Under the pieces are notes generated by a model. It was given only the letters and a program-made list of their open reading frames with translations, searched no databases and was not told the DNA's origin. From contig JAJRSX010000122.1 in the NCBI GenBank assembly GCA_024278555.1, positions 1 to 32,548 on the forward strand: DNA of 32,548 nucleotides, in the 5' to 3' direction. How positions within the stretch are numbered: the first letter of the stretch is position 1; every line of letters begins with the position of its first letter. This document shows, piece after piece, positions 18,382 through 25,596 of this stretch. This stretch comes from a bacterium. GTDB taxonomy: Bacteria; CG2-30-53-67; CG2-30-70-394. A program made the position numbers and the translations under genes.

Positions 18382-19593
18382 CTAGTACTTGATCTGGTAG
18401 ACCACCTGCACCCGCTGGTCGTCGCCGAGGTTGTTGCCCGCCGACGGCGCCTTGCTGAGGCCGCCGCTGTTCTCCCCGAACTGCACCGTCTCGTAGTCGA
18501 GCAGGACCATGTTGCCGTGGTGCAGATCAAAGGAGAGGCCGGCGACGTAGAGGTCGTAGTCGGCGTTGTCCGCCACCACCGCGTCCTTGTCCGCGTCGAA
18601 GTGGTCGTAGCGGCCGAAGGCGGCGAGCTTGCGGTGGGTCCCCGGGGCGACCAGACGGCCGAAGAGGGACCACCCCTCGGTGTCGAGGGCGTCACCCGCC
18701 CCGTCCACCAGGCTCCCCTTGGCGTTGCCGGTGGTCTGGAAGTACTGGGCGGTGACGATCCCGAAGGGGTGCTCGTAGCTCACCATCCCGAGGTTCACCG
18801 TGTAGTCGGGGCTCGGGTCGGTGTTGCCCTTGCCGCTCATCCCGAGGTAGCTGAGCTGCAGGCCGGGGAGGGCGTCCGGGAGCGGCCGGAGGGTGAAGCG
18901 GCCTTCGACCACCTTGTTGTCGTTGTGCTCCTTGGCGTGGTACCCGCCGCCGTTGTAGACGCCCACGTGCCAGGAGCCGTAGCGGCCATCGTAGTGGTGG
19001 TTGCCGGTGCGCACCTTGGCATCGTCCAGCTCGCCGCCGAGGTTGCCGCGTAGGGAGAGACCGAGGTCGGCGGAGTTGAAGATCCCGGCCCGCTCGATCG
19101 CCACGGTCCCCTGGGCCCGGTACGGGTTGACGTGCTCCTCGAAGTCCTGCCACGGGATGTGGCCCTGGCCGATCTCCGCCTTCATCTGGGTGAGGAGGCC
19201 CACATCCTGCGGACTGAGCTCGGCGTAGAGGTACTTGAGGCGGAACTTCCAGTCCTCGTCCGAGTCCTGGTGGACGTCGGCGGTGGTGCGCGCGGACATC
19301 CACGGGAGGATCCGCTTCTTCACCGTGAGGTAGCCGCGGGTGAGGGTGAAGCGGTTGAGGGAGGAGGTGTCGTCACCGGCGACGCCGGTATTGCCGACCG
19401 AGTAGTCGACATAGCCGAGGACGCCGACCGAGAGGCCGCGGAGCCCCTCGGGCAGGGGCGCCGACCTGACGCTCGCCGCCTCTTGAGCGGTGAGGACCCC
19501 CTTGTGCCGGAGGAGGTCGGTGAGGGTGTCGGCCGCGACCGGCGAGGCGGCGACGAGGGCGGCGAGCAGGGCCACGGTGAGGCTGTTGCGCAT
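18382..19593 (-). CDS. Outer membrane porin (OprP/phosphate-selective porin-like)
   Basis: Signal peptide, alternating beta-strand pattern, terminal aromatic (VQVVYQIKY), FRLKYLYAELSPQDVG region. Confidence 0.75.
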   Translation of the reverse strand: MRNSLTVALLAALVAASPVAADTLTDLLRHKGVLTAQEAASVRSAPLPEGLRGLSVGVLGYVDYSVGNTGVAGDDTSSLNRFTLTRGYLTVKKRILPWMSARTTADVHQDSDEDWKFRLKYLYAELSPQDVGLLTQMKAEIGQGHIPWQDFEEHVNPYRAQGTVAIERAGIFNSADLGLSLRGNLGGELDDAKVRTGNHHYDGRYGSWHVGVYNGGGYHAKEHNDNKVVEGRFTLRPLPDALPGLQLSYLGMSGKGNTDPSPDYTVNLGMVSYEHPFGIVTAQYFQTTGNAKGSLVDGAGDALDTEGWSLFGRLVAPGTHRKLAAFGRYDHFDADKDAVVADNADYDLYVAGLSFDLHHGNMVLLDYETVQFGENSGGLSKAPSAGNNLGDDQRVQVVYQIKY

Positions 19594-23674: not shown

Positions 23675-24325
23675 ATGCGGCGTGCTTGGGCTGGATCAAA
23701 GATGACTGTGCTGCTCGCCTTCGTTGTCGTGGTCCTCTCCGCCACCGTGCCGGCGGCGGCGGTCGCGGCGGGGTGCCCGGCGTGCCACCGGGAGGCACCC
23801 GCCGGTTCGCCGGCGGCGGCGGCGTTCGGCCGCTGGCAGGGGTCGGTCCATGCGGCAGCGCAGGTCACCTGCGATCGCTGTCACGGCGGCCACCCGGAGG
23901 CGACGACCCGCGCGGCGGCCCACGCCGGCATGCTTCCCCCTTCGGACTCGGCATCGCCGGTCCACCCGACCCACGTCCCCGCGACCTGTGGCCGCTGTCA
24001 CGAGCCGCAGGTCCAGGAGTTCATCCGCTCACGCCACTACCGCGTCCTCCAGGGGGCGGCGCCCGGTGAGGCACCCACCTGTGTCACCTGCCACGGCGCC
24101 ATGCCCACCGAGGTCCTCACCCCGGAGACGGTGGCGACGGCGTGCGCCCGCTGTCACAACGCCAAGGGGGGGGTCAGCCCGCGCATCCCGCAGGAGGCGC
24201 ACGCCACCCTCGACCTCATCTTTTTTGCCAAGACCACCCTCGAGTGGAGCCGTGACGCCCTCGCCCACGCCCGGGCGCTCGGGCGCCCCGTGGGCGAGGG
24301 AGAGCGGGCGTTGGCGGCGGCGTAG
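23675..24325 (+). CDS. Exported pentaheme c-type cytochrome, apparently truncated by in-frame TAG
   Basis: Signal peptide; CPACH, CDRCH, CGRCH, CVTCH, CARCH. The same frame continues after TAG (24323-24325) to a second TAG at 24482-24484. Confidence 0.85.
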   Translation: MRRAWAGSKMTVLLAFVVVVLSATVPAAAVAAGCPACHREAPAGSPAAAAFGRWQGSVHAAAQVTCDRCHGGHPEATTRAAAHAGMLPPSDSASPVHPTHVPATCGRCHEPQVQEFIRSRHYRVLQGAAPGEAPTCVTCHGAMPTEVLTPETVATACARCHNAKGGVSPRIPQEAHATLDLIFFAKTTLEWSRDALAHARALGRPVGEGERALAAA

Positions 24326-24484
24326 ACGGCCTTCCACGCGGCCGAGGCGAAGTGGCACTCCTTCCGCTTCGACGAGATCCTCGACACCGTGGAGCGCGCC
24401 TACGACGGTGCCAAAGAGGCGAAGCGGGCGGTGGACAGCGCGGTCACCCGCGGCGCCATCGAGGGCCGGGCCGGGCACCGGTAG
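24326..24484 (+). other. In-frame continuation of the pentaheme cytochrome after the TAG codon
   Basis: TAFHAAEAKWHSFRFDEILDTVERAYDGAKEAKRAVDSAVTRGAIEGRAGHR*; resembles the C-terminal helical region of multiheme cytochromes of this type. Confidence 0.65.
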
Positions 24485-24930: not shown

Positions 24931-25596
24931 ATGCAGAGACGACGCTCCACCCTTTGGTACCTCCTGCCCATGGTGGCGCTCCTGATCCTCCCGCTGGCGG
25001 GGTGCGACGACGGGGACGACGGCGCCGTGGGGCCGCCGGGGCCGGAAGGGGCCGCGGGATCGACGGGCCCCGCAGGGCCGGCGGGGCCGGCGGGCCCCAC
25101 CGGGCCGGCGGGGCCGGCCGGCAGCGGCGCCGCCACCCTGAGCGACCTGGATCAGCTCCTGGTCACCACCCTCTCCACGGAGAACGTCGTCGACCTCCAC
25201 GACGAAACCTCCGCCGACTACGACGCCGACTGCGTGAGCTGCCACGGCGACAAGAGCGGTGAGGTGGCCCTCGACGGGACCACCCCCATGGCCCACGCGA
25301 TGATGATGCCGCAGACCCCGGGGGCGGACACCAACGCCAGGTGCGCCTACTGCCACGCCAAGGTCCGCCTCCAGTACCGCAACCCGACGCAGAACTTCCA
25401 CATGGACGTCTACGCCGAGTATGCGGACCCGCGGCCGGCGCTCACCGCCGGGGTCCAGCACGAGACCGCGCGCCAGGACATCAACGCCAGCGCGGCGGGG
25501 ACGGCGATCCGCAAGCCGTACGAGTCGTCCAGCGCGTGCAACACCTGTCACGGCCCCACCCCGGTGGGCACGGCGGTGTCGTTCTACCAGAAGTAG
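24931..25596 (+). CDS. Collagen-like triheme c-type cytochrome lipoprotein
   Basis: ATG at 24931 with a GAGGAG RBS (ORF track starts too far upstream); lipobox LAGC; 12 Gly-X-Y triplets (25021-25128); CVSCH, CAYCH, CNTCH. Confidence 0.88.
   Translation: MQRRRSTLWYLLPMVALLILPLAGCDDGDDGAVGPPGPEGAAGSTGPAGPAGPAGPTGPAGPAGSGAATLSDLDQLLVTTLSTENVVDLHDETSADYDADCVSCHGDKSGEVALDGTTPMAHAMMMPQTPGADTNARCAYCHAKVRLQYRNPTQNFHMDVYAEYADPRPALTAGVQHETARQDINASAAGTAIRKPYESSSACNTCHGPTPVGTAVSFYQK

Follow-up and report, generated by a model that had tools for sequence, protein, structure and literature searches.

An in-frame TAG in a conserved pentaheme cytochrome gene of a Nitrospirota-related draft genome, with a possible origin in the assembly or in a minor strain

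In systems of UAG suppression or reassignment, those for pyrrolysine included, an in-frame UAG is followed by conserved protein sequence. In bacteria, the code reassignments known at the time of PMC8629427 all concern UGA. A decoding of UGA via tRNAs with 4-bp anticodon stems has been described (PMC13092985). The in-frame stops of pseudogenes arise by single-base changes of certain codons (PMC8629427); such nonsense pseudogenes, and likewise the consensus errors of draft assemblies, lie one base step from a sense codon and keep homology downstream of the stop. The pentaheme c-type cytochrome gene analyzed here shares both sets of features. It lies in a stretch of 32,548 nucleotides (the window), a contig of a draft genome of 3.06 Mb in 211 contigs. 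That assembly is probably metagenome-derived, like that of its sister species, the MAG Nitrospirae bacterium CG2_30_70_394, which is the one congener compared. By our analysis the TAG derives from a conserved GAG codon through one G-to-T change private to this genome, and it is moderately likely that this change is a consensus error or the allele of a minor strain.

The cytochrome gene on either side of the TAG

An open reading frame with five CXXCH motifs begins at ATG 23675 on the forward strand and meets an in-frame TAG at 24323-24325. The 216 codons before this stop (23675-24322) hold all five motifs and give a Cytochrome_C7 match above cut-off; judged by alignment with the Met of the sister protein, the ATG at 23702 is the likelier start. 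Beyond the stop, 52 open codons (24326-24481) lead to a second TAG in the same frame (24482-24484), and both the coordinates and the frame reported in the first-pass annotation were verified. An open tail frame is by itself no evidence for protein, because 42% of shuffles of the 156 tail bases in this GC-rich sequence also stay open; since a 52-codon open frame is unremarkable at such composition, it is homology and selection that carry the argument.

When homologues were aligned, none of the 23 relatives and paralogues stopped at the TAG site, and all 23 extended past it. The sister orthologue has GAG at this position and encodes a full-length protein whose stop lies 4 codons before the second TAG of the window, the expected end of the full-length cytochrome, and in five more distant class relatives the residue is Glu in four and Ile in one. 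Compared with the sister, dN/dS is 0.171 over the 48 aligned codons of the tail and 0.173 in the body before the stop, and it exceeds 1 in the two other frames of the tail. These sequence comparisons indicate that the tail is genuine protein under the same purifying selection as the body. They uphold the earlier proposal to that effect, and the sister codon agrees with its companion claim that one change from GAG or CAG would be sufficient to produce the TAG. No indel and no other decay was found in the gene relative to the sister. Given that purifying selection is equally strong in tail and body, the change from GAG to TAG must be recent or exist in the assembly only.

The structural prediction places the stop inside a folded element. 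In an AlphaFold2 model of the cytochrome (mean pLDDT 82), three long helices are predicted at residues 173-201, 207-227, and 232-266, with block pLDDT mostly 88-97 and values of about 90-97 for the helices of the tail. Residue 217, the TAG, falls in the middle of the second helix, and the tail, which encodes the remainder of that helix and the whole of the third, is predicted to complete a C-terminal three-helix bundle. Downstream of the stop, in a C-terminal helix, lies a WHSF motif whose His228 (codon 24356-24358) is the same in all 15 sequences compared and is probably a heme ligand. Among the other histidines outside CXXCH motifs, His59 and His121 are also invariant and His83 is nearly so. 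RNA folding downstream of the TAG was not unusual (z -1.4).

Encoded in the same operon are a triheme protein, a 4Fe-4S subunit, a TorD-like chaperone, and a TtrA/PhsA-type molybdoenzyme whose scores reach none of the named cut-offs; ahead of it lie genes for a PhnD-like protein, a histidine kinase, and a sigma-54 regulator. The triheme protein is a lipoprotein-like cytochrome with a collagen-like Gly-X-Y stretch (window positions 25017-25120; Collagen match below cut-off). Other pentaheme paralogues are present in the genome.

Interrupted genes elsewhere in the genome

Stops flanked on both sides by coding-like sequence were sought in 1.19 Mb of the draft genome and 0.53 Mb of the sister, and the candidates were sorted by eye and checked with Pfam, PDB alignments, or the sister sequence. 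The 1.19 Mb contained about 13 breaks in unrelated genes, 11 of them TAG and 2 TAA, plus a probable frameshift. The count is approximate, in that assignment was partly by eye and short tails are poorly detected; it extrapolates to about 33 breaks per genome. The sister shows at most 1 break in 0.53 Mb, against 5.8 expected at the rate of the draft genome (P 0.02). TAG interrupts the pentaheme cytochrome, lysS, a multiheme cytochrome, an aminotransferase, CbbQ/NorQ, a stomatin-like protein, a response regulator, DUF3106, DsrE, a FAD-binding protein, and a propeller protein; TAA interrupts an NtrC-type regulator and an RND protein. One 18-kb contig, C160 (L100), carries two breaks, at 2784 and 12417, which comprise the TAG of the multiheme cytochrome (Glu in the sister) and the TAA of the NtrC-type regulator (at a Gln position). 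The probable frameshift lies at about 18175 of contig C19 (L125), in a gene whose counterpart in the sister is unbroken.

From codon usage, random nonsense changes should yield 67-70% TAG, about 15% TAA, and about 15% TGA, and under this expectation the probability of at least 11 TAG among 13 is 0.15-0.21; the mix of stops is what random substitution of single bases would give at high GC content. Seven of the nine breaks with an assignable residue lie at Glu or Gln, somewhat above random expectation (P 0.03, rising to 0.10 under a bias towards GC-to-AT changes), a mild lean that we regard as a loose end. Same-frame neighbours in the scans, such as a pair before secY, were set aside by eye as ordinary adjacent genes, and stops from BLAST that lay off frame or upstream of starts were rejected, among them one that precedes the probable start of hisG. 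On the minus strand of contig C50 (L188), at about 609-611, an arsenic-methyltransferase-like gene has a TGA at the site of a conserved Cys of ArsM (ECLGGAL). This codon may specify selenocysteine, and it was left out of the breaks for that reason; selA scores above cut-off in the genome.

The interrupted lysS, which surfaced from a PylS search, deserves separate treatment. Its in-frame TAG lies at a Glu codon (contig C56, about 19009-19011; L098:3510) of the sole bacterial-type lysS in the genome, where no class I LysRS was found. The gene is intact in seven of seven relatives, with Glu at the stop site in those aligned. Because lysS is single and no class I enzyme was found, its stop cannot represent a loss that became fixed in living cells. 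Either the assembly is wrong here or UAG is decoded: if the TAG is real, the latter must hold, because the cell cannot live without lysS. Relative to the sister, lysS has two further private changes, GGC to GAC and GAG to GAT, at positions invariant elsewhere; that these are of the same GC-to-AT kind as the break is suggestive only.

Origin of the TAG

We favour a model in which a G-to-T change at 24323 would have converted the conserved Glu codon GAG to TAG in the draft assembly, as a consensus error or a minor-strain allele, and the living population would keep an intact cytochrome gene. An assembly-side cause is preferred because similar breaks occur elsewhere in unrelated genes, the single lysS among them. 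Counted against it are that about 33 breaks per genome would also be a normal pseudogene load, that most of the broken genes are non-essential, and that the breaks lean to Glu and Gln.

The main rival, ranked next and in our judgment a real possibility though the less probable one, is that the base is correct and marks a recent nonsense mutation, the gene being a young pseudogene or a segregating inactive allele. Translation would then halt after residue 216, within the second helix of the bundle, and the product would keep all five heme-binding motifs and lose the third helix and His228; because these are missing, the truncated cytochrome would probably be non-functional. A single step from GAG suffices for such a mutation, which would take away both the invariant His228 and the last part of the bundle; the other pentaheme paralogues and the ordinary number of broken genes also favour it. 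Against it, the gene shows no further decay, with no indel and with equal dN/dS in tail and body, the remaining genes of the operon are open, and whatever process broke this gene would need to have struck the single lysS too.

Production of the full-length cytochrome by reading through the UAG, with a suppressor or near-cognate tRNA most likely inserting Gln, is very unlikely. Selection on the tail and the lean of the breaks to Glu and Gln codons speak for it, as does the need for a working LysRS if the lysS TAG is real, and lysS keeps open a small chance of UAG suppression. The decoding apparatus speaks against it. None of the 48 tRNAs in the draft genome has a CUA anticodon (a tRNA in an assembly gap would escape this search), and normal 5-bp anticodon stems were seen in all of the inspected tRNAs for Gln, Glu, Trp, and Tyr, with no sign of the 4-bp route described for UGA (PMC13092985). 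RF1 is intact, with prfA above cut-off, and the PylS search of the genome returned matches far below cut-off and none above. Moreover, TAG terminates 334 of 868 coding-like frames in this genome (38%) and 142 of 362 in the sister (39%), back-up stops after TAG are not in excess relative to TGA or TAA, and the bacterial code changes known to PMC8629427 are all of UGA. The first-pass annotation had argued against genome-wide recoding from the TAG stops of hypC and the triheme gene; both genes do end in TAG, and the argument is supported by the normal use of TAG as a stop. Readthrough, which it had listed as an alternative, is not favoured, since TAA breaks and a frameshift accompany the TAG breaks in unrelated genes and readthrough leaves them unexplained; general or programmed readthrough of UAG is unlikely. 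Even less probable is a more specific form of decoding, in which UAG would be ambiguous in this Nitrospirota-related genus, usually a stop and sometimes Gln or Glu, and tolerated by a few dozen genes that include the only lysS. Least probable of all is that the gene is meant to encode only the 216 residues, this species being able to do without the tail: all five CXXCH motifs do precede the stop, but none of the 23 aligned homologues ends there, the tail is under full selection, and the stop falls within a confidently predicted helix.

Comparison with known systems

The cytochrome is closest to the small multiheme cytochromes that have a Cytochrome_C7 (PF14522) domain and are encoded next to operons for TtrA/PhsA-type molybdoenzymes. 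It has the same CXXCH pattern, and its operon likewise has a molybdopterin subunit, a 4Fe-4S subunit, and a TorD-like chaperone; it differs in that its score reaches the NCBIfam cut-off for none of the named cytochrome families and in being interrupted by TAG. No sequence relative was found in the PDB. The top Foldseek matches are the pentaheme and octaheme cytochromes of the NrfA/HAO type, which also combine several hemes with long C-terminal helices; the likeness is weak (best E 0.06, TM about 0.3), and the cytochrome has 269 residues compared with about 475.

A lone in-frame TAG followed by a selected tail will mimic readthrough as long as the remaining genome goes unexamined, and this locus illustrates the point. 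Unlike UAG suppression systems, the genome is without a decoding tRNA or a PylS above cut-off, it has RF1, and it uses TAG as an ordinary stop. With nonsense pseudogenes and draft consensus errors the agreement is closer: the sister has GAG at the site, and the breaks elsewhere in the genome involve a mixture of stops that matches codon usage.
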